NCBI GenBank assembly: GCA_001412365.1
Contig: LKUE01000253.1
Span: 1 to 8,692, forward strand
Reading direction: 5' to 3'
Length of the DNA stretch: 8,692 bases
Origin: Desulfuromonas sp. SDB
Lineage (GTDB): Bacteria; SDB-A
Part shown: one piece after another, positions 61 through 8,692 of the stretch
How the letters are laid out: each line of letters begins with the position of its first letter
Numbering within the stretch: the stretch's first letter is position 1
The notes under the pieces: generated by a model
The model's input: only the letters and a program-made list of their open reading frames with translations
Told to the model about the DNA's origin: nothing
The model's database searches: none
Position numbers and translations under genes: made by a program

Positions 61-1305
61 TTACTCATCTAATGGACTTTTAACTCCTAATATATTCTTT
101 TTTGCCACATGAGTGTAGATCATAGTGGTTTGAAGATTTTTATGACCCAACAATTCCTGAATAGTTCTAATATCATATCCTTTTTCCAGCAGATGAGTGG
201 CAAAACTATGTCTTAAACTGTGTATGGAGGCATTCTTGACTATGTCTGTTTTTCTTAAGGCTACTTTAAAAGCTCTTTGCAGTGAAGCTGGATGATGATG
301 ATGACGTCGAACTGTTTTAGTTACGGGATCAACTGATAACTGTTTAGAAGGAAATATCCAAAACCACCCCCATTCCTTACCTGCCTTGGGATATTTCCTT
401 TCCAAAGCAAAAGGTAGTTGAACTCCGGGTACATCATTGTCTCTATCTTTTTGATATAGTTTTTTTATCTCCTCTAAATGAACCATTAATTTCTCATGGA
501 GAGTTATGGGGAGTACAGTTCTTCGATCCTGGTCTCCTTTCCCCGATCTGACAATCAAAATATTTTGCTCTAAATCTAAATCCTTAACTCTTAATTGCAG
601 GCATTCACTTAATCTCAAGCCACAACCGTAAATCAATTCAGCCATAAGTTTCGAGGAATGATTTAAGTTGGAAAAAATCTGATGAATTTCTTGTTTAGTT
701 AAAACTACCGGAAGTTTTCTCTTATGCTTTGATCTCACTGCATCAATGGTATTTTCAATATCCTTTTCCAGAACATACCGAAACAAAAAAACTATTGCAT
801 TTAACGCCTGGTTTTGGGTGGCTGGAGCGACTTTGCGATCTACCGCTAAGTGGGTTAGGAAATCCTGAAGATCACCACCAGATAGGGTATAAGGATTTTT
901 AGATTTATTGTATCCGCTAAATTGTTTTAGCCAGGAAATATAAGTTTTTTCAGTTTGATAAGACCGTTGTTTTAATCTAAGTTTGTTTTTCATTTTTTCA
1001 AATATCTCATCCCATAAATTTTCATAATTATCATTTAAATTTGATGATGACTGCTGGTTTTTGCTTTTTAAAAAGAAATTATAAAGTTTTATGGCATAAT
1101 CAGCCTGATTAACCTGCCATTCAGGATAATTTTTAGAAAGGTGATTGATATAAGTATCCTTCTCTATTTGATCTATCATCTGGTCAAATTTTTTTGAATT
1201 ATAACTCAGACAAGATTCAACCCATTTCAGGTAAAATTTAATGTATTTCGATTTGATATTTACCTGATTTAATAGATAATTTTTAAAATCTGTAATTGTT
1301 TTCAT
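61..1305 (-). CDS. intI: Integron integrase (IntI-type tyrosine recombinase)
   Basis: This is a site-specific tyrosine recombinase that joins attC sites of cassettes to attI and excises them. The catalytic set is visible: R231 (GCGLR), K256 (SGKGDQDR), H362-x-x-R365 (HSLRHSFATHLL), H388 (LLGHK) and the nucleophile Y397 (MIYTH). The segment specific to integron integrases, absent from Xer proteins, spans about residues 297-346 (FALERKYPKAGKEWGW, then RRHHHHPASLQRAFK). The C-terminal GVKSPLD is also typical. The core-binding SAM-like domain starts near residue 103. The protein is 414 aa against about 320-340 for class 1-type enzymes, and the excess is an N-terminal extension of about 100 aa that looks like a second core-binding-like repeat. 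No clear ribosome binding site precedes the ATG at 1305. The stop is about 60 bp from the window edge. The gene is AT-rich and diverges from the array. Confidence 0.95.
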   Translation of the reverse strand: MKTITDFKNYLLNQVNIKSKYIKFYLKWVESCLSYNSKKFDQMIDQIEKDTYINHLSKNYPEWQVNQADYAIKLYNFFLKSKNQQSSSNLNDNYENLWDEIFEKMKNKLRLKQRSYQTEKTYISWLKQFSGYNKSKNPYTLSGGDLQDFLTHLAVDRKVAPATQNQALNAIVFLFRYVLEKDIENTIDAVRSKHKRKLPVVLTKQEIHQIFSNLNHSSKLMAELIYGCGLRLSECLQLRVKDLDLEQNILIVRSGKGDQDRRTVLPITLHEKLMVHLEEIKKLYQKDRDNDVPGVQLPFALERKYPKAGKEWGWFWIFPSKQLSVDPVTKTVRRHHHHPASLQRAFKVALRKTDIVKNASIHSLRHSFATHLLEKGYDIRTIQELLGHKNLQTTMIYTHVAKKNILGVKSPLDE

Positions 1306-1355: not shown

Positions 1356-1381
1356 TTACTGTGAAGTCATTATAATTTATA

Positions 1382-1410
1382 TTGACTAAAGAGAAAGATT
1401 TAAATATACT
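1382..1410 (+). promoter_or_regulatory. Cassette promoter (Pc-like)
   Basis: TTGACT (1382-1387) and TATACT (1405-1410) are separated by exactly 17 nt. Each matches the sigma70 consensus at 5 of 6 positions, and the promoter faces the cassettes. It lies between intI and the first cassette, just upstream of the attI crossover, where integrons place the promoter that transcribes captured cassettes. Transcription would begin near 1416-1418, about 50 nt before the TIR start codon. This assumes a host with a standard sigma70 consensus. Confidence 0.6.
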
Positions 1411-1430
1411 CTGTATTAAATATAATACAG
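1411..1430. repeat. Inverted repeat over the Pc start site
   Basis: Two perfect 8-bp arms, CTGTATTA and TAATACAG, are separated by AATA. The repeat begins directly after the -10 hexamer and covers the expected transcription start. It ends 13 bp before the cassette crossover. It could be an operator for a repressor or an accessory integrase-binding site of attI. The half-site CTG...CAG spacing is 14 nt, not the 10 nt of the enterobacterial LexA box. Confidence 0.6.
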
Positions 1431-1449
1431 TAAAATATAAATGTTGGGC
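1431..1449 (+). other. attI: attI / first-cassette junction (core site)
   Basis: The core box GTTGGGC (1443-1449) fits GTTRRRY and marks the crossover G^TT between 1443 and 1444. Bases from 1444 onward belong to cassette 1, because GTTGGGCA is the reverse complement of the cassette's own terminal R'' box TGCCCAAC (2284-2291). The attI side extends leftward into the AT-rich region, perhaps through the inverted repeat, but its left limit is not visible. Confidence 0.75.
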
Positions 1450-1469
1450 ATTATAGAATGGAGAGTCAT

Positions 1470-2282
1470 ATGCAAAATGAAAAGTCGGTGGATGAGCAGA
1501 TCATTGAGATGTATAGAAATTTGGTCGCCAATAAACATCCTGACTTAGTTTCCGGTTGGCCAATCCTTACCGGGCATAATATAAAAGGCGGCTCTTATGG
1601 GGATTGGACGATCATTGTTTTTGAACATACTGGCAACCCCGTTATGAAGAGCAGTAGTGGCATTGGAGAAATTTCCTCCGCAATAATCGGATATGACCAA
1701 ATAACAGATGGTAACAAGGTCAGTGTTAGAGAGCGGATAGCTCGTCACTTCAGGCTATCGCGTCGTGATGCTGTTTTTGTTTTTGACAGGAGAGGCGATA
1801 TACAAGAAGATTTGAACGCAGCTATGCTTCAACATGAAATAGAAATGGGGCTTTGTCCAATGCGTATATTTTTAAGCCATAAAGGCGCAGATAAACCTAT
1901 GGTGCGTGAATTTAAGCGCACTTTTGAAGAATTGGGGTTTGATCCATGGTTGGATGAGGATGCGATGGCCGCTGGAGTAGAGCTTGAAAGAGCAATACTC
2001 CAAGGGTTTAAAGATTCGTGTGCAGCAGTATTTTTTGTCACTCCCAATTTTCAAGACGAGGAATACTTATCAACCGAGGTAAACTACGCCATTCAAGAAA
2101 AGAGGAATAAAGGTGAAAGGTTTTCTATCGTTACGATAGTGTTTTCAGAAGGCCCCAACAGGGGTGTTGTCCCAGATTTGCTTAAGCAATATGTATGGAA
2201 AGAACCTAATAGCGAAGTAGAAGCTTTTAGGGAAATTATCAGAGCTATACCGATCAAAGTGGGGCCAGTCCAGTGGAAATAA
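1470..2282 (+). CDS. TIR-domain protein with unknown N-terminal domain
   Basis: The TIR domain occupies about residues 131-258 (numbered from the ATG at 1470). It begins MRIFLSHKGADKPMVREF, followed by LGFDPWLDED and AAVFFVTPNF, with a TEV motif whose glutamate (E203) is placed like the catalytic Glu of TIR NADases. Bacterial TIR proteins of this kind commonly cleave NAD+ in anti-phage defence; that activity here is inference. The first 130 residues (GDWTIIVFEHTGNP, RRDAVFVFDRRGD) match no domain I can name and may be the sensor. I chose 1470 because GGAGAG at 1460-1465 lies just upstream; an in-frame ATG at 1458 would add four residues but has no comparable site. It is the first gene behind the cassette promoter and is alone in its cassette. 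The stop codon ends 2 bp before the attC R'' box. Confidence 0.85.
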   Translation: MQNEKSVDEQIIEMYRNLVANKHPDLVSGWPILTGHNIKGGSYGDWTIIVFEHTGNPVMKSSSGIGEISSAIIGYDQITDGNKVSVRERIARHFRLSRRDAVFVFDRRGDIQEDLNAAMLQHEIEMGLCPMRIFLSHKGADKPMVREFKRTFEELGFDPWLDEDAMAAGVELERAILQGFKDSCAAVFFVTPNFQDEEYLSTEVNYAIQEKRNKGERFSIVTIVFSEGPNRGVVPDLLKQYVWKEPNSEVEAFREIIRAIPIKVGPVQWK

Positions 2283-2284
2283 TT

Positions 2285-2356
2285 GCCCAACAAGGCGCTG
2301 CACCGGAGGGCAATTCCGCTGCGCTTCATTGCCGCCGGTGAGCTTTGTCGTTGCAG
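2285..2356 (+). other. attC: attC site of cassette 1
   Basis: R'' is GCCCAAC (2285-2291) and R' is GTTGCAG (2350-2356). The inner stem pairs CACCGG (2301-2306) with CCGGTG (2335-2340) and GGCAAT (2309-2314) with ATTGCC (2328-2333). Unequal unpaired bases between the arms (AG against G) resemble the extrahelical base that marks the recombining strand. The terminal loop is about 13 nt. Confidence 0.8.
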
Positions 2357-2376
2357 GGCGCTGCGCGCCCTGCAAC
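2350..2376. repeat. Perfect 12-bp hairpin at cassette 1/2 border
   Basis: GTTGCAGGGCGC (2350-2361) and GCGCCCTGCAAC (2365-2376) are exact reverse complements with a TGC loop. The left arm is R' of attC1 plus the start of cassette 2; the right arm ends in R'' of attC2. There is no T-tract after it, so it is not an obvious intrinsic terminator. Confidence 0.85.
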
Positions 2377-2514
2377 GGGCGAGTTGAGTGAACTCCAATG
2401 AATCGTTTCTGTGCGCGCTGACTCGCGCCCTCCAACAATCCATTGGAGTGGAAAGAACCTGGCCGTATCCGAGCAAGCTCGAACACGTCCAGAACCTTCC
2501 GCTCAACTCGCCCG
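2351..2514 (+). mobile_element. ORF-less cassette (cassette 2)
   Basis: This cassette is 164 bp from TTGCAG to the G of the next GTT. Only 19 bp precede its own R'' box, so it is almost entirely attC. It has no plausible plus-strand coding sequence. Its start and R'' are complementary over 12 bp, which supports a genuine excisable unit rather than leftover spacer. It is GC-richer than both flanking genes. Confidence 0.75.
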
Positions 2515-2520
2515 TTATGT
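2370..2520 (+). other. attC: attC site of cassette 2 (long type)
   Basis: R'' is CTGCAAC (2370-2376) and R' is GTTATGT (2514-2520). The outer stem is a perfect 12 bp, GGGCGAGTTGAG (2377-2388) with CTCAACTCGCCC (2502-2513), continued by AAC/GTT. An inner stem pairs ACTCCAATG (2392-2400) with CATTGGAGT (2441-2449). The 151-bp span is at the long end of the attC range. A small hairpin, CGAGC-AA-GCTCG, sits in the right half. Confidence 0.8.
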
Positions 2521-2539
2521 TTAAAAAAAGGAAATAAAT

Positions 2540-4411
2540 ATGATTGAAATTAAAAAAATTGAGATTTCTCATTTTCGTTCAATTTACAGTTTAAAAGTTG
2601 ATAACTTAAGCGATTTAACAATCTTTGCAGGTAAAAATGACATTGGGAAATCTAATATTTTGAAAGCATTAAATTTATTTTTCAACAATGAAACTGATTG
2701 GAATACAAGTTTTGATTTTAAAAAAGATTTTTCATATAAAAGGAAAAACGAATCCATTAAGTTGAAAACTCGTCAATTTATACGTATTGCAATCCGTTTT
2801 AAAAGAGGCGATCGATATCAAAACAGTTTACCTGAAGAATTCACGGTAACACGTACATGGTATCGCAATTCATCTTTTCCAGATGAAAAGAATTCTCTTT
2901 CAAAAGAACACAGAAAAATAAAAAAGCCAAAATGGTCTATCAACCGTGCTAATTCTAGCCTTCAAAGATATCTAAACACTATAAGATTTGAGTATATTCC
3001 AGCAATTAAAGACAATCTATTTTTCACATATATATTAGGACGCTTGCAGCATATAATTTTTGCAAAAGGTTCCAATGAATCAACAGTTAAAGAATCTGTA
3101 GAAGGATTGAACAACACTATTTCTGATGAAATTAGGAATTTACAAAACGAATTCGCACTCATTACAAAGATAAGCACTCAAATAAATTTACCTGAAAAAT
3201 TATCAGATTTATTTAAGGCATTTACTGTAAACACGACAGAACTAGGAGAGAATCTTCCTTTACAACTCCGGGGAGATGGTATTAGAACCAGATTTATCCC
3301 TTCCTTGCTGCATCATATTTCACAAAATTCAAAACTATATTTTGTTTGGGGATTTGAGGAACCGGAAAATAATCTTGAATATTCCTTAGCAATAGAACTA
3401 GCAGAAAAAATGGCTAAAGAATATTCTCAAGATTCACAAATATGCATAACAACACATTCACCTGCGTTCTTCTCGCTATCTGAAAACAATATAACCATAT
3501 ATCGTACCTTTAAAAACAATTCTGGAACAGCATGCATAAATCTTAACGTTGCTAATCAAGATGCATCCGATCAATTATGGATTGAAATGGGACTAATGAA
3601 ATTTCAAATACAATCACAGAATGAATATAAAAAGAAACTTGATAGTTTAGAGAAAGAACGCGAGGATTTAAATAAAATAAAGAAGGAGACCACTAAGAGC
3701 AATACTCCAATTTTATTAACTGAAGGAAAATGGGATGAATTAATACTTAATACCGCATGGTCTAAACTCTATGATAACAAGAGTATCCCTTTCAGAATTA
3801 TATGTTCTGATCCATATCAAGGATCAAATACAGATTCTTTTGGTGGCATTAACACTGTTAAGCATTGCTTAGAATCAACACGTAAAGATGAAGCTATTAC
3901 TATCGGTTTATTTGATAGAGATATGCCCGGGTATCATAAAGGATTCAATGGATTGACTCGTAATTTTACTATCAGTTCTTTTAGTAAAGACGTTAAAATT
4001 CATAAGGCTGGCACTTCTGCAGCAATTGTTCTGCCTTCTATAGATAGTCGCCGAGAATTCGCTGCGGTATATAACCTTGAAATAGAATTTTATTTTAATG
4101 ATTCATATTTACAAAAAAAGGTTAAACAGAAAGGTTTAGAATTGAAACCTAGGTTAGTAAAAACTACTGTTATAGGAACGGGGTTAGAAGAAACGAAAGA
4201 AGCAACCGAGCCACATTTATATCAAATAGTAGACTCAACAAAAAAATATTTTGCAGAAACAATAGTTCCTACATTACCAAAAGAAGCTTTTGATAATTTT
4301 ACGATAATTTTTAACTTAATAAATACTACTGTGGATTTTATAAAAAAACATAACAAAGCACTACACCTGACTGGTACCCGCCGCCATTCGGCGTCGGCTA
4401 CCAGCAGGTGA
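2540..4411 (+). CDS. OLD-family ATP-dependent endonuclease (AAA ATPase + Toprim)
   Basis: The N-terminal ABC-like AAA domain starts EIKKIEISHFRSI and has Walker A GKNDIGKS (31-38), a signature-like LQLRGDGIRTRF (241-252), Walker B FVWGFEEPE (268-276, with Glu in place of the usual Asp) and an H-loop THSP (305-308). A charged helical segment (360-386) leads to a Toprim domain with LLTEGK (E395) and the acidic pair in DRD (D459, D461). This is the OLD architecture, an ATP-regulated DNA nuclease family used in phage defence. No UvrD-like helicase (GajB) follows, so it is not a complete Gabija pair and is better read as a single-gene OLD; a fused PARIS-like protein is less likely. GGA (2530-2532) precedes the ATG at 7 nt. 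The last 21 residues are encoded by the attC site, where the stop codon also lies. Confidence 0.85.
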   Translation: MIEIKKIEISHFRSIYSLKVDNLSDLTIFAGKNDIGKSNILKALNLFFNNETDWNTSFDFKKDFSYKRKNESIKLKTRQFIRIAIRFKRGDRYQNSLPEEFTVTRTWYRNSSFPDEKNSLSKEHRKIKKPKWSINRANSSLQRYLNTIRFEYIPAIKDNLFFTYILGRLQHIIFAKGSNESTVKESVEGLNNTISDEIRNLQNEFALITKISTQINLPEKLSDLFKAFTVNTTELGENLPLQLRGDGIRTRFIPSLLHHISQNSKLYFVWGFEEPENNLEYSLAIELAEKMAKEYSQDSQICITTHSPAFFSLSENNITIYRTFKNNSGTACINLNVANQDASDQLWIEMGLMKFQIQSQNEYKKKLDSLEKEREDLNKIKKETTKSNTPILLTEGKWDELILNTAWSKLYDNKSIPFRIICSDPYQGSNTDSFGGINTVKHCLESTRKDEAITIGLFDRDMPGYHKGFNGLTRNFTISSFSKDVKIHKAGTSAAIVLPSIDSRREFAAVYNLEIEFYFNDSYLQKKVKQKGLELKPRLVKTTVIGTGLEETKEATEPHLYQIVDSTKKYFAETIVPTLPKEAFDNFTIIFNLINTTVDFIKKHNKALHLTGTRRHSASATSR

Positions 4412-4426
4412 GTTTGAATGTTGGAA
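4348..4426 (+). other. attC: attC site of cassette 3 (overlaps gene end)
   Basis: R'' is ACATAAC (4348-4354) and R' is GTTGGAA (4420-4426). The stem pairs CACCTG (4364-4369) and CTGGTA (4371-4376) with CAGGTG (4405-4410) and TACCAG (4399-4404). A4370 is the only unpaired base, a textbook extrahelical base. An apical hairpin pairs CGCCG with CGGCG. The TGA of the upstream gene is at 4409-4411, inside the stem. Confidence 0.9.
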
Positions 4427-4460
4427 AGCATGTGTTTATTATTAACATAGGACAATAAAT

Positions 4461-5105
4461 ATGAAACCAGAATATGTACTTCCTGAATTGCATCTTGAAG
4501 CATTTAACTGTCCAAATTGTCATGTGTATTGTCGCCAGCATTGGTATTACTTAGCGGCTGCAGAAAGAAAAGACGGGTATGGATCACAATTCCGTGATGA
4601 ACGGTTCATGGTAAGTAACTGTGAACGATGCGGCTTCCCAACAATATGGCTTGGTGACAAAATGATTTATCCTGTCACGGCAGGTGCAGAGCCACCGAAC
4701 CCTGACCTACCCCCTGAAATAAAGGCCGATTACGAGGAGGCAAGGTCTATTCTTTCACAATCTCCAAGGGGTTCAGCGGCTCTCCTTCGCCTTTCTATTC
4801 AAAAACTATGTGCTCATTTAGGACAACCCGGAAAAAACATAAACGATGACATCAAGGCTTTAGTCGCGTCTGGTTTGCCTGCGAAGGTGCAGGAAGCGCT
4901 TGATAGTGTGCGGGTAATTGGAAACGAAGCAGTTCATCCGGGCACGATTGACCTTAATGATGATCGCAATACAGCCAATATGCTTTTTAAGCTTGTTAAT
5001 TTTATAGCAACAAAATTGATAACTGAACCGAAAGAAATTGATCAAATATATAGCTCTTTACCAGAATCAAAACTTAATGCAATATCTCAAAGGGATAAAA
5101 AGTGA
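4461..5105 (+). CDS. Zinc-ribbon DUF4145 protein
   Basis: The N-terminal part carries two CxxC pairs, C17/C20 (CPNC) and C54/C57 (CERC), that would form a zinc ribbon. A helical DUF4145 domain follows at about residues 85-200, with the characteristic RVIGNEAVHPG (151-161). DUF4145 is found alone and fused to restriction-enzyme subunits; its R...N...H arrangement resembles HEPN-type helical domains, but a nuclease role is not shown here. Other recognisable features are GSAALLRLSIQKLCAHLG (104-121) and a basic C-terminus. AGGA (4449-4452) is 8 nt before the ATG. It is the only gene of cassette 4, and its TGA ends 4 bp before the R'' box. No signal peptide or membrane segment is seen, so it is probably cytoplasmic. 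Function is unknown. Confidence 0.8.
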   Translation: MKPEYVLPELHLEAFNCPNCHVYCRQHWYYLAAAERKDGYGSQFRDERFMVSNCERCGFPTIWLGDKMIYPVTAGAEPPNPDLPPEIKADYEEARSILSQSPRGSAALLRLSIQKLCAHLGQPGKNINDDIKALVASGLPAKVQEALDSVRVIGNEAVHPGTIDLNDDRNTANMLFKLVNFIATKLITEPKEIDQIYSSLPESKLNAISQRDKK

Positions 5106-5109
5106 AGCT

Positions 5110-5172
5110 TTCCAACAAGGCTTTTGCAGCGGAGCGCAAAAAACGCGCACCCGCTGAAAAGCAGCGTTGGGT
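5110..5172 (+). other. attC: attC site of cassette 4
   Basis: R'' is TTCCAAC (5110-5116) and R' is GTTGGGT (5166-5172). GCTTTT (5120-5125) plus CAGCGG (5127-5132) pair with CCGCTG (5151-5156) plus AAAAGC (5157-5162), leaving G5126 as a single extrahelical base. Inner GCGC arms close the loop. It is a short, canonical attC of 63 bp. Confidence 0.9.
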
Positions 5173-5191
5173 GCTGAGAAAATGTAGAAAT

Positions 5192-5205
5192 TATTATTAA
5201 TAATA
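5192..5205. repeat. AT-only 14-bp palindrome
   Basis: TATTATT/AATAATA is a perfect palindrome in the leader of cassette 5. It may be a weak operator, or a by-product of AT richness. No confident promoter was found beside it. Confidence 0.3.
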
Positions 5206-5247
5206 TACAATATTGCAAAGGAGAATTGTCGTAAACCTAAATCTAAC

Positions 5248-5328
5248 ATGCTGCTTATAGCTTTTCAAGCGAAGGAGGCTGATGAAGTGTTGCGTAAGAT
5301 TCACGTGAAACTAGGAGAGACACCATGA
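5248..5328 (+). CDS. Possible 26-aa leader ORF or gene remnant
   Basis: A frame from the ATG at 5248 encodes 26 residues (ending RKIHVKLGETP). Its TGA overlaps the start codon of the DUF4062 gene as ATGA, the usual geometry of coupled translation. No Shine-Dalgarno sequence precedes the ATG. The frame stays open upstream to a TAG at 5185-5187 with no better start. It may be the tail of a lost upstream gene, a leader peptide or chance. No homology is recognised. Confidence 0.2.
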   Translation: MLLIAFQAKEADEVLRKIHVKLGETP

Positions 5329-5795
5329 AGCGTAAGCAAATTTTCATCAGCAGCGTCCAAAGCGAGTTTGCCCAAGCACGTGATAAGTTGGCCTCATTCA
5401 TCAACAACGATCCATATTGGAGCCAGTTCTTCTATGCTTTTATTTTTGAGAATCTCCCGGCCAGTCGGCGGAGTCCATCAGATATCTATCTGGCTGAAAT
5501 CGACAAGAGCACAATCTATCTGGGTATCTTTGGATATCGCTATGGAAAGCTTATCGATATCGGGATTTCGTCCACGGAACAGGAGTTTGACTATGCGATT
5601 AAGACAGGTCGAGATCCTCTAATTTTCATCAAAATATTGACTCCGAGAGCGAATCGCGCGAAACGCATGCAAGCACTAATTCGGAAGGCCAACGCCTATA
5701 CCTATGCCACTTTCCGTAACACGGATCAACTCTGTAGCGAGGTCCAGAGAAGCTTGCTTTTATGGCAACAAGATCAAACGCGGAGGACCAAATAA
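5325..5795 (+). CDS. DUF4062 domain protein (first half of a split pair)
   Basis: DUF4062 spans about residues 4-100: KQIFISSVQSEF (4-15), FFYAFIFENLPAS (35-47), IYLAEIDKSTIYLGIFGYRYG (split here as IYLAEIDKST, 54-63, and IYLGIFGYRYG, 64-74) and STEQEFDYAIKTGRDPLIFIK (STEQEFDYAI, 83-92, then KTGRDPLIFIK, 93-103). A helical tail ends RSLLLWQQDQ. The fold is related to TIR/nucleotide-hydrolase-type Rossmann domains; no catalytic activity is established. From general knowledge of the family, this domain is usually the N-terminus of a single longer protein that continues into an ATPase region like the next gene. Here a stop codon separates them. A strong site AGGAGA (5313-5318) precedes the ATG at 6 nt. 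The gene overlaps the next one as TAATG. A leader of about 150 nt, long for a cassette, lies upstream. A signalling or sensing role for the pair is inference. Confidence 0.75.
   Translation: MKRKQIFISSVQSEFAQARDKLASFINNDPYWSQFFYAFIFENLPASRRSPSDIYLAEIDKSTIYLGIFGYRYGKLIDIGISSTEQEFDYAIKTGRDPLIFIKILTPRANRAKRMQALIRKANAYTYATFRNTDQLCSEVQRSLLLWQQDQTRRTK
5782..5786 (+). promoter_or_regulatory. Ribosome binding site that fixes the ATPase start
   Basis: GGAGG lies 8 nt before the ATG at 5795 and inside the last codons of the DUF4062 gene. The alternative in-frame ATG at 5762 has no such site. The stop TAA (5793-5795) and the ATG share one base, so translation is probably coupled. Confidence 0.65.
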
Positions 5796-6820
5796 TGGAA
5801 GTTCCTTTTTATCTAACACCGGCAAAAGGCAGTAAGTTATCGGATATCGCTCAGGACCGCATCTATTGGTTTGTCGCTGAAGCTTCCGAGAAGCGAAAGT
5901 TTTCCTTTGAGACAACCCCGACACTAATGAATGTGCTAACCGAACTGGATCTGCTCGACAATAACCGCCTTCTTCATGCTGCCTTAATGCTTTTCGGTAA
6001 AAAGCCTCAGCGCTTCTGTCCCGCAGCTGTGGTAAAATGTTCACATTATCATGGTACCGAAGTGACGCGACCGATACCCAGTCATCAAGTTTTTGGAAAT
6101 ACCCTCTTCGAGCAAGTTGACAATGCGGTAGATTTCGTACTTTCCCACCTTGACCGCACTATTGGGAATCGGGAGGAGACTACAATCGCCGAGGAGAAGC
6201 TTGAAATTCCCAAAGAGGCGATTCGCGAGATCATTGTTAACGCCGTAGCCCACCGGAACTACGATTCCAATGCGTCTGTGCAGATTGACGTATTTACAGA
6301 CCGGGTTGAAATCATGAATCCTGGTGGGCTTCCTGGCGAACTAACGGTCGACGACTTAGTCAAGAAACACCTCTCGGTACCGGTGAATCCCTTCCTAGCT
6401 AGACCTTTCTACTTGGCCGGTTATATCAATCAACTAGGCTACGGTACTCTAAACGTTGTTAAATGGTGTCGGGAAGCTGGTCTTCCAGACCCTAAATTCG
6501 ATCCGGTGGAGAACCGTTTTCGAGTCACCATTTGGCGAAACTGGCTTACCGATGATCGCATAAAGGGCCTTAACCTTAATGAGAGACAAGTCAAAACCAT
6601 TCAATTTCTCAAATCAGACCTCCACATCACTAATGCCGAATTCCAAAAGTTAAACGGTGTATCACGCGCGACTGCCAAACGTGATCTCGATGAAATGGTA
6701 AAGCTAGGACTTCTCAAACTCGAAGGGGCTGGCCGATCCGCCCATTACCGGCTCTCCGGGTATCGGCTCAACAATGGCTCAAACGGCTCACATTACCGCA
6801 ATACTGGAAATGGCTCATAA
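5795..6820 (+). CDS. RecG-C-terminal-like HATPase with winged helix (second half of split pair)
   Basis: Numbered from the ATG at 5795 (341 aa). An N-terminal linker with LTELDLLDNNRLLHAALMLF (48-67) and VKCSHYHGTEVTRPIPS (80-96) leads to an HATPase_c_4 (GHKL) domain. Its N-box is EIIVNAVAHRNY (145-156, N149), the glycine motif is EIMNPGGLPG (172-181), and the second glycine box is LGYGTLNVV (214-222). A winged helix-turn-helix covers about 258-315 (ITNAEFQKLNGVSRATAKRDL). Proteins annotated as RecG-like or ATP-binding transcriptional regulators share this C-terminal plan but have no helicase domain. Coupling to DUF4062 suggests one complex. An in-frame ATG at 5762 gives 11 more residues. The C-terminus is Asn-Gly-Ser-rich, and its DNA repeat continues beyond the stop codon. 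Confidence 0.8.
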   Translation: MEVPFYLTPAKGSKLSDIAQDRIYWFVAEASEKRKFSFETTPTLMNVLTELDLLDNNRLLHAALMLFGKKPQRFCPAAVVKCSHYHGTEVTRPIPSHQVFGNTLFEQVDNAVDFVLSHLDRTIGNREETTIAEEKLEIPKEAIREIIVNAVAHRNYDSNASVQIDVFTDRVEIMNPGGLPGELTVDDLVKKHLSVPVNPFLARPFYLAGYINQLGYGTLNVVKWCREAGLPDPKFDPVENRFRVTIWRNWLTDDRIKGLNLNERQVKTIQFLKSDLHITNAEFQKLNGVSRATAKRDLDEMVKLGLLKLEGAGRSAHYRLSGYRLNNGSNGSHYRNTGNGS

Positions 6821-6837
6821 ACGGCTCAAATGGCTCA
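6765..6837 (+). repeat. Six GGCTCA repeats across the gene end
   Basis: GGCTCA occurs at 6765, 6776, 6785, 6812, 6823 and 6832, mostly within the unit AA(T/C)GGCTCA, encoding Asn-Gly-Ser. The fourth copy ends directly at the stop codon TAA (6818-6820). Two further copies follow out of frame because of the bases TA at 6818-6819. Without these two bases the frame would continue NGSNGSFI to a TAG at 6844-6846. Confidence 0.8.
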
Positions 6838-6866
6838 TTCATTTAGCATCACTCAGAGGAAGTGAA

Positions 6867-6989
6867 ATGACAACAAGCATTAGCAGTTATGCGCATAACA
6901 AATCACTAAAGCCAACTACTTACGCATGTCACTCACTTTGCAGAGCAAGCAAAGTCCGCGCCACGCTACGGCGGCTTAGTTCCACATAA
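6867..6989 (+). CDS. Small ORF reading through an attC (40 aa)
   Basis: The ATG at 6867 follows GAGGA (6856-6860) at 6 nt, a good ribosome binding site. Only the first residues (MTTSISS) lie before the attC; the rest (for example KSLKPTTYACH and RATLRRLSST) is attC read in frame, a common kind of cassette tail. It may be the remnant of a cassette gene whose body was deleted. A functional peptide is not supported. Confidence 0.25.
   Translation: MTTSISSYAHNKSLKPTTYACHSLCRASKVRATLRRLSST
6886..6899. repeat. R'/R'' palindromic junction GTTATGC-GCATAAC
   Basis: GTTATGC (6886-6892), a cassette-start core site, is directly abutted by its reverse complement GCATAAC (6893-6899), an R'' box. The 14-bp palindrome is what a cassette with no content between its start and its attC would show. 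Confidence 0.7.
6893..6985 (+). other. attC: attC-like site with degenerate 3' end
   Basis: R'' is GCATAAC (6893-6899). L'' CTAAAGCC (6906-6913) pairs with GGCTTAG (6973-6979), leaving one extra A as the likely extrahelical base. ACTTTGC (6935-6941) and GCAAAGT (6949-6955) form an inner hairpin. The only GTT nearby is GTTCCAC (6979-6985), which abuts L' without the usual spacer and does not fit GTTRRRY. The expected position of R' reads ACATAAG instead. The site therefore seems damaged or divergent at its right end. Confidence 0.6.
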
Positions 6990-7002
6990 GAGAATTGAAT
7001 TT

Positions 7003-8692
7003 ATGGTAAAAGAATATTTGAAGAAAATAGCTGAGACAACGATACAAGGTGACGCTAGAGAAGAAAGCTATTATCCTCAACTTGCTGATCTTTTTATAAA
7101 TTTTTCAGAATCGATTGGGAAGAAGAAAATACATGTTACAACTCTTCCGAAAAAAACTGATGCAGGAAATCCAGATTTTAGGATTTGGGATGGAAAACAA
7201 CATATCGTTGGTTATGTTGAAGCTAAAGTACCTGGAACTGATTTGAACAGGATTGAAGATTCCGAACAGTTAAAAAGATATCGAAGTACCTTCCCAAATC
7301 TAATACTTACTGATTTTTACGAATTCCGTTTATTCCGAGACGGTAAGCTTATAGATAAGATCTTTATTGGTCGACCATATGTCGCTCAAAAACTTAAAAT
7401 AGCATCACCGGTTGAAAATGAAAAATCACTCATAAAAATATTTGAAAAGTTCTTTGCATTTTCTTTACCTAAAGTATTTAGTGCAGAAACGTTAGCTATT
7501 GAACTTGCTAAAAGAACTCGATTTTTAAAAGATGAAGTGATTCATCAAGAATTGGAAGATGAAGAAAATAACAGTAATGAGGTCATAGGTTTTTTTGATG
7601 CTTTTCAAAAATACTTGATAGCAGGATTAAAAAAAGATGAGTTTGCTGATATATATTCACAAACTATAGCTTATGGTTTATTTGCTGCCCGTACTCGCTC
7701 CGAAAAAGAATTCAATAGACGATTAGCTTATAACTTTATCCCGCCAACAATTGGAATATTGAAAGATGTATTTCAATTTATTTCATTAGGGAAAGTACCT
7801 CAACAAATGGAAGTGATTATTGATGATATAGTAGAAGTACTTATTGCAGCAGACATATCAAAAATACTACAAGACTACTATAAGAAAGGCAAGGGACAAG
7901 ATCCGATTATCCATTTTTACGAGACTTTTCTAAATCAATATGATCCTAAAACTCGAGAGAAAAGAGGTGTTTATTATACACCTGAACCAGTGGTAAATTA
8001 TATTGTTCGTTCTCTAAATGAAACTCTAATTAATGATTTTGGAAAAGAAAACGGTTTCGCAAATACTGATGTTACAGTGCTTGATCCAGCAGGTGGGACA
8101 CTTACATTTTTAGCACAAACTACCAAATTTGCCATAGAAAATTTTGTTGACAAATTTGGAGAAGGACATAAAGCAAATTTTATCCGAGATCATATACTTC
8201 AAAATTTCTATGCATTTGAACTAATGATGGCCCCCTATGCCATTGCACACCTTAAAATGTCTTTCTTACTGGATGAATATGGATATAAGATGCAGGACAA
8301 TGATCGTTTTAAGCTCTACTTGACTAATACATTAGAAGTAGAAGATCTTGAACAAACTCGAATACCTGGCATGGCTTCTTTGGCAGAAGAAAGCAAACAA
8401 GCCTCTTTAGTAAAAAAGAAACAACCAATTCTGGCGATAATGGGTAATCCACCATATTCAATATCTTCCTACAATAAATCTGATTTTATTGAAGATATAA
8501 TGGATTTGTATAAACAGGACGTAAGAGATGAAAAAAACATTCAACTACTGTCAGATGATTACGCCAAATTCATCCGATTCTGCCATTGGAAAATTGAACA
8601 GACAGGTACAGGTGTTGTAGGCCTGATTACAAAAAACACATATCTAAACACTTCTGCATTCAAAGGTTTACGAAAAAAGATATTAGAATTTT
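7003..8692 (+). CDS. Type IIG/ISP-like restriction-methyltransferase (3' end beyond window)
   Basis: The frame is open from the ATG at 7003 to the window edge (563 codons, no stop), so the protein is incomplete. The N-terminus has a PD-(D/E)xK nuclease pattern: NPDFRIWDG with D58, then VGYVEAK with E73 and K75. A helical linker is followed by RGVYYTPEPVVNYIVRSL (321-338), the adenine-methylase region. SAM-binding motif I is DPAGGTLTFL (361-370), FYAFELMMAPYAIAHLKM lies at 402-419, and catalytic motif IV is NPPYS (482-486). It would cut and N6-methylate DNA in one polypeptide. There is no room for a helicase between nuclease and methylase, so it is not LlaGI-like. The recognition domain should lie downstream. 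Only a weak AGAG precedes the ATG. Whether this gene is a cassette is unclear. It is AT-rich, like intI and the OLD gene. Confidence 0.85.
   Translation, partial: MVKEYLKKIAETTIQGDAREESYYPQLADLFINFSESIGKKKIHVTTLPKKTDAGNPDFRIWDGKQHIVGYVEAKVPGTDLNRIEDSEQLKRYRSTFPNLILTDFYEFRLFRDGKLIDKIFIGRPYVAQKLKIASPVENEKSLIKIFEKFFAFSLPKVFSAETLAIELAKRTRFLKDEVIHQELEDEENNSNEVIGFFDAFQKYLIAGLKKDEFADIYSQTIAYGLFAARTRSEKEFNRRLAYNFIPPTIGILKDVFQFISLGKVPQQMEVIIDDIVEVLIAADISKILQDYYKKGKGQDPIIHFYETFLNQYDPKTREKRGVYYTPEPVVNYIVRSLNETLINDFGKENGFANTDVTVLDPAGGTLTFLAQTTKFAIENFVDKFGEGHKANFIRDHILQNFYAFELMMAPYAIAHLKMSFLLDEYGYKMQDNDRFKLYLTNTLEVEDLEQTRIPGMASLAEESKQASLVKKKQPILAIMGNPPYSISSYNKSDFIEDIMDLYKQDVRDEKNIQLLSDDYAKFIRFCHWKIEQTGTGVVGLITKNTYLNTSAFKGLRKKILEF

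Follow-up and report, generated by a model that had tools for sequence, protein, structure and literature searches.

A chromosomal integron of Desulfuromonas sp. SDB with defense-like first cassettes and dispersed copies of its Pc-attI block

Integrase, attI site and cassettes of the window

We analyzed the entire 8692-base contig LKUE01000253.1 (C253; hereafter, the window) of the 3.14-Mb draft genome of Desulfuromonas sp. SDB (G000), whose phylum is rarely sampled (4 genomes in the searched set). The window carries an integron integrase gene (intI), an attI recombination site with its promoter Pc, and a row of cassettes with candidate phage-defense genes (Table 1). An earlier note on this DNA had read an integrase followed by TIR, OLD, DUF4145, DUF4062/HATPase, and nuclease-methylase genes, and comparisons with Pfam, PADLOC, and TIGR02249 confirmed all of these families where it had placed them. 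Judged by its genes and sites, the window covers the part of a genuine chromosomal integron that lies closest to the integrase. We consider it quite probable that the account as a whole holds, in which the first cassettes of this integron are defense-like and dispersed copies of its Pc-attI block are served by one IntI.

Table 1. Features of the window and of related loci (positions are those of the window unless a locus is named; ORF, open reading frame; 7/7, heptamer test described in the text)
Feature	Position	Strand	Evidence or remarks
Integron integrase gene intI, 414 amino acids, ~100-amino-acid N-terminal extension	61..1305	-	TIGR02249; alignment to 2a3v
Pc-attI block	1371..1449	+	Crossover after G1443 (ATG^TTGGGC); match to sequence model R3, E = 1.9e-10
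Promoter Pc, TTGACT-17-TATACT	1382..1410	+	-35/-10 position conserved across genomes in alignment
20-bp palindrome CTGTATTAAATATAATACAG	1411..1430	not assigned	Just downstream of the Pc -10; adjoins crossover
Cassette 1: TIR-domain protein	1444..2350	+	ORF 1458-2282; TIR residues 137-249; attC 2285-2356; 7/7 (1443/2285)
ORF-less, highly structured 164-bp cassette	2351..2514	+	attC 2370-2520; 7/7 (2350/2370)
OLD-like AAA-TOPRIM cassette	2515..4420	+	ORF 2540-4411, 623 amino acids; attC 4348-4426 overlaps 3' end of ORF; 7/7 (2514/4348)
DUF4145 cassette, PD-T7-4 family	4421..5166	+	ORF 4461-5105; attC 5110-5172; 7/7 (4420/5110)
DUF4062 TIR-like NADase domain protein, 156 amino acids	5325..5795	+	DUF4062, 6.2e-19
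GHKL ATPase with winged helix-turn-helix end	5795..6820	+	HATPase_c_4, 6.8e-21
attC-like element	6886..6985	+	GTTATGC/GCATAAC boxes; L arms with extra-helical base
Type IIG restriction enzyme-methylase, first 563 residues	7003..8692	+	REase-MTase, 7e-130; cut by contig end
ORF6N cassette and second Pc-attI region	L013 2708-3235 and ~2275-2710 (contig C348)		Sequence reading
TIR-transmembrane defense gene, single cassette behind off-site attI	L141 1023-2480 (genome G122, contig C18)		Between glycyl-tRNA synthetase alpha and beta genes
intI relic	L181 ~3700-4363 and beyond (genome G120, contig C90)		Beside selB, upstream of intact Pc-attI and cassette

The IntI protein scored 395.6 bits against TIGR02249 (cut-off, 265). 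Among solved structures, V. cholerae IntI4 is the nearest (2a3v; E = 1.4e-72), and the RHRH-Y residues and the IntI-specific insert align with it. The catalytic residues are intact, and no other IntI is encoded in the genome. Its nearest intact counterparts (48-63% identity) belong to Nitrospirota and deltaproteobacterial metagenome-assembled genomes (MAGs) and a few others. We aligned the window attI with the attI of four related integrons (five intI-proximal sites) and with copies lying away from any intI (off-site copies); the attI of related integrons have the -35, -10, and ATGTT positions in common. The palindrome, possibly an operator, is kept only in the copy on contig C348 (attI2) and is absent from the other attI copies.

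Cassette boundaries were assessed with a heptamer test. The first heptamer of a cassette (G^TTxxxx) should complement the R'' box of its own attC, because both halves derive from one circular site; the chance rate in the same DNA is 0.5% of pairs for 7/7 complementarity and ~6% for 6/7. Complementarity is perfect for six cassettes (TIR, ORF-less, OLD, PD-T7-4, and, on the continuation described below, DUF3800 and ORF6N) and reaches 6/7 for two (that of a 107-amino-acid protein, and the stretch from DUF4062 to the restriction-modification [RM] gene taken as one unit). Bottom-strand folding of attC sites was compared with dinucleotide shuffles (z score). Four sites fold strongly (z from -3.7 to -9.3), namely those of the ORF-less cassette, whose branched fold is extremely stable (z = -9.3), of the OLD cassette (z = -8.5), of the PD-T7-4 cassette (z = -4.9), and at 10068-10190 in extended coordinates on C348 (z = -3.7). 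Folds at the remaining sites are weak or none: the TIR attC (z = -0.8) and the attC-like element at 6886-6985 (z = -0.2) do not fold better than shuffles. With IntI, attI, and six perfect starts, the reading of this array as integron cassettes stands, corrected by an additional ORF-less cassette and by the possible union of the DUF4062, ATPase, and RM genes in one cassette.

The TIR protein (TIR_2, 7.8e-16) is encoded alone, without the ThsA gene that accompanies the TIR protein ThsB in Thoeris, and its ThsB scores are weak only. Three of its relatives were found among viral contigs; the same contigs, scanned for the GHKL ATPase, DUF4062, and the attI pattern, gave no match. The TIR attC region (2285-2353) has 93-97% identity with stretches on plasmids from Geoalkalibacter and Citrobacter freundii, and this likeness suggests an exchange of cassettes or attC sites across phyla. 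In Geoalkalibacter, the matching stretch lies behind a methyltransferase gene and, in Citrobacter freundii, near a group II intron. The ORF-less cassette may encode a structured RNA or consist of no more than an attC unit; its Rfam matches are all sub-threshold, and Rfam at the gathering threshold returned nothing in the window. The OLD-like protein matches AAA_15/OLD-GajA-like ATPases (Pfam, PADLOC), and its TOPRIM assignment comes from PADLOC OLD/GajA matches and motif reading, without a separate Pfam match. It too is the only gene of its cassette, where a Gabija system would pair GajA with a UvrD-like GajB. The DUF4145 protein (4.9e-16) matches PADLOC PD-T7-4 (PDLC04109) over its full length (3.2e-88; residues 1-214 of 214 against 1-209/211). 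The GC content per cassette ranges from 28% to 48%.

The ATPase gene has a Shine-Dalgarno sequence (GGAGG) and a TAATG overlap with the DUF4062 gene, so a true split into two genes seems likelier than a frameshift. In Legionella anisa and three relatives from metagenomes (loci L057-L060), a single chain carries both DUF4062 and the GHKL ATPase; in L. hackeliae, as in the window, they are two genes. The only solved match of the DUF4062 protein is KpSwz (PDB 10wc). Residue E87, in STEQEFDYA, aligns with its active-site position, at which the solved chain appears to carry an E97A mutation. In PADLOC, the GHKL part lies near SIR2-type proteins associated with prokaryotic Argonautes, a hint of exchangeable NADase heads.

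The RM protein continues on C348 to a full length of 1018 amino acids and is followed there by an attC. Nuclease, N6-methyltransferase, and specificity domain lie in one chain (PDLC03610 1-608 in the window and 606-1069 on C348; Type_ISP_C, 5e-64). When the RM gene was tried as a separate cassette, its start heptamer matched its own R'' at only three of seven positions. Because the attC-like element has no canonical R' box, the DUF4062-ATPase pair and the RM gene are not demonstrable as two cassettes, and a single ~5-kb cassette is possible.

Continuation of the array and dispersed Pc-attI copies

Contig C348, reversed, joins the window through an 18-bp overlap across which the RM frame continues. 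The RM attC is followed by DUF3800, the unknown 107-amino-acid protein, an ORF6N protein (PDC-S05 candidate, 2.7e-53), a second attI, and a HerA-like ATPase, whose N-terminus has what look like membrane helices. The ORF6N cassette has kept its R'' (CCTCAAC) and has no recognizable attC 3' half; attI2 lies ~340 bp later. C253 and C348 together hold approximately nine cassettes (the criterion for a sedentary chromosomal integron is >20), and further array fragments on contigs C233, C195, and C223 are unjoined.

The earlier note had described the cassettes as nearly all candidate phage-defense genes. Within the window, this description stands, as every gene-bearing cassette belongs to a defense-associated family; among them are a full-length PD-T7-4 match, a DUF4062 of the Swarozyc family, and a complete type IIG RM. 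Match counts alone were not taken as proof of enrichment, since PADLOC, run on 62 control genes, also produced promiscuous matches in large number. The rightward extension that the note had proposed adds weaker candidates (DUF3800, the 107-amino-acid protein, ORF6N/PDC-S05, and HerA-like). The fragment on C223 is defense-like in a similar way: a 75% copy of the ORF-less cassette, directly behind another attI with no integrase nearby, is followed by PDC-S32-like and HEPN-like genes, a NucC-like DUF6602 nuclease, a PLD-SNF2 helicase, AlbA_2-GHKL, and another type IIG RM. The description does not extend to all integron DNA of the genome, as the array on C233 (L098, reverse strand) is mixed (glyoxalase, PadR and ABM, MazEF, a SoFic-like Fic protein, an APH-like kinase, and a serine hydrolase).

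The attI-like site on C223 was found because copies of the ORF-less cassette were searched for. In all, the genome holds six copies of a ~80-bp Pc-attI block, which spans about -80 to +3: at intI, on C348, C223, and C195, and twice on C233, 2 kb apart. Five of these (all except that on C195) were found by an attI pattern search, whose matches on C14 and C79 were not counted as attI; three sequence models followed. R1, built from the five copies, matched the held-out sixth on C195 at 4e-5 and found no copy in same-family genomes without intI. R2, built from nine sites (only intI-proximal sites and G000 copies), recovered held-out copies at a distance from intI in three genomes (G120, G122, and G124; best E, 1.6e-7). 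R3 takes in the R2 matches. Its census, cut off at E<=5e-4, counted eight copies in G122, six each in G000 and G120, two each in G121 and G124, and one in G125; the 25 control genomes, all without this integrase, had none (best score among them, 6.5e-4). The copies resemble each other more closely inside one genome than across genomes (67% versus 59%; 0/3000 permutations). In G122, intI-attI (at 2.6 kb) and two off-site copies (at 53.8 and 72.7 kb) share one 114-kb contig (C17), which excludes a binning error there.

No internal attI copies were found inside the intI-proximal loci of the relatives, whose copies lie elsewhere in the genome. By eye, from translations, their neighbors are housekeeping genes (near glyQ/glyS, topA, cysK, folK, selB, coaE, and a dnaK-type gene). 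Behind these copies stands one cassette, such as the TIR-transmembrane gene in Table 1 or MscL. An R'' box exactly matching the site's own heptamer was found at the ORF end for 7/14 off-site copies, compared with 1/176 cross-site pairs, and direct reading of L147 added an eighth (8/14); three of these eight sites (L177, L180, and L181) are significant only with R3. The same holds in G000, where the C233 copy attI4 is followed by the SoFic-like cassette (start GTTATCT versus R'' AGATAAC, 7/7). In a synteny comparison, the gene flanking the C223 site was absent from three same-family genomes.

One off-site copy, on contig C90 of G120, retains a gutted intI, of which residues 1-59 (66% identity) and the final ~10 with the stop are left and the middle is deleted. 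Several other copies have kept the intI-attI spacer to about -150 and have no intI. The simplest account of these remains would be that dispersed integron copies lost intI and kept Pc-attI and cassettes.

A proposed single integrase for many sites, and the alternatives

We propose that IntI would recombine the folded attC of excised cassettes into double-stranded attI at ATG^TT, and that Pc would transcribe the newest cassettes. The integron would have spread as copies that retained Pc-attI and cassettes after the loss of intI, and the single surviving IntI could insert cassettes at any Pc-attI copy. Each Pc copy would express its own local cassettes, with the intI-proximal array rich in anti-phage genes. 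Whether one IntI indeed serves many scattered Pc-attI sites, so that several cassettes, anti-phage ones included, stand in first position at once, we regard as evenly balanced. The sequences, the heptamer matches, the census with its controls, and the gutted intI are direct observations. From them we infer the service of off-site attI in trans, the origin of most off-site sites from integron copies that lost intI, and the activity of each Pc on its local cassettes; the cassettes would presumably protect against phage. The idea in the earlier note that order sets expression is too simple for a genome with at least five further Pc-attI copies, several of which lead other array segments or lie within them.

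Several points weigh against this proposal. The join between C253 and C348 consists only of the 18-bp overlap and the reading frame, the array fragments of G000 are separate contigs, and all multi-site genomes are draft MAGs. The best R3 scores are partly a matter of construction, as R2 matches are included in the model. At six of the 14 off-site copies, no perfect R'' follows. Some copies have decayed: that on C195 lost its crossover G (ATT), and the -10 of attI4 is poor. Finally, only a single relic intI was found among the off-site copies.

In a rather unlikely alternative, an ordinary chromosomal integron has one working attI, that beside intI, and the other blocks are dead remnants of earlier integron copies or of cassettes of the delta-attI type. 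The internally deleted intI and the missing crossover G on C195 would fit such remnants, and delta-attI cassettes have precedent in class 1/2 integrons (PMC12901181). Dead sites are, however, difficult to reconcile with a 16-nucleotide crossover box and promoter that are kept while the flanks have no similarity. They also do not account for the 7/7 cassettes directly behind at least 8/14 of the relatives' copies and behind attI4 (the Fic cassette), as real insertions predict.

A different objection concerns function rather than sites: the cassettes may have been selected for stabilization by toxin-like genes or in conflict between elements, and not for phage defense of the host. Toxin-like NADases and HEPN proteins can serve as stabilizers, and toxin-antitoxin and Fic genes are present on C233. 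We nevertheless consider this explanation unlikely, as publications give direct evidence of anti-phage action for the RM, PD-T7-4, and DUF4062 families (PMC9519451, PMC13174449).

The repeated block could also be a host promoter or operator of a regulon that the integron borrowed as Pc, given that it contains a clear TTGAC-17-TATAAT-type promoter and that the palindrome is common to two integron copies. We regard this as very improbable. Conservation is strongest downstream of the -10 and ends exactly at GTT, where cassettes begin; the end of the block resembles the published minimal attI2 core AATAAAATGTT; and the block is absent from same-family and other genomes without this IntI. Finally, an ordinary defense island with accidental attC-like hairpins is hardly credible, for although at some junctions (6893-6985 and two C348 sites) shuffles fold as well or nearly as well, the locus has an intact IntI, an attI, six 7/7 cassette starts, a TIR attC nearly identical to plasmid stretches, and a GC content that varies widely across cassettes.

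Comparison with known integrons and defense systems

In the textbook picture, an integron has a single integrase, a single attI, and a single promoter, and its cassettes form one queue of which only the front ones are expressed. If one IntI does serve several Pc-attI sites, the expression bottleneck and the idea of mostly silent cassettes would fail in this clade, several defense cassettes could be expressed at once, and single cassettes between housekeeping genes would become recognizable as integron products. Because IntegronFinder-type searches recognize attI for few classes only, scattered Pc-attI sites would be missed by them. A literature search for multiple, internal, orphan, or scattered attI, with subscription papers outside its coverage, found no precedent.

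Defense cassettes have been described in sedentary chromosomal (Darracq et al. 2025, Science eads0768) and mobile integrons (Kieffer et al. 2025), as summarized in PMC12409362. The window shares with such anti-phage biobanks the integrase, attI, attC array, and defense cassettes in an environmental chromosome. It differs from them in that its first cassettes are nearly all defense-like and large (the 1.9-kb OLD cassette and a possible 5-kb three-gene cassette), and in its several Pc-attI. In V. cholerae, ~10% of cassettes are reported to be active, and defense cassettes are described as small. Large systems, such as the 1018-amino-acid RM, the 623-amino-acid OLD-like protein, and the two-gene NADase-ATPase, can also ride in cassettes described as favoring small ones. 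The defense-loaded array itself is therefore of a known kind, and the window is a strong case of it, from a rarely sampled phylum and with unusually large cassettes.

PD-T7-4 is an experimentally found defense system (Vassallo et al. 2022, PMC9519451), which the window protein matches over the full length of the family and which here is an integron cassette. The newly described Swarozyc system (preprint PMC13174449) has DUF4062 as its TIR-like NADase, and the window protein has kept this domain and the position of the active-site glutamate. The tested Swarozyc members have a C-terminal helix-turn-helix or winged auxiliary domain in the same chain, whereas the window protein ends after DUF4062 and its partner is the separate GHKL ATPase with its winged helix-turn-helix.

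Clusters of attC sites lacking an integrase are known as CALIN. The off-site copies resemble CALIN in that a genome with intI has cassettes at a distance from it, and differ in beginning with a recognizable Pc-attI and having mostly one cassette. Cassettes of the delta-attI type (PMC12901181) likewise place attI sequence inside a cassette array, and some are functional in IntI1 assays. Those are mostly 14-18-nucleotide attI fragments that replace attC in one mobile array, whereas the Desulfuromonas sp. SDB genome repeats the whole ~80-bp Pc-attI block, and its relatives carry the block at separate chromosomal loci between housekeeping genes, outside the delta-attI description.

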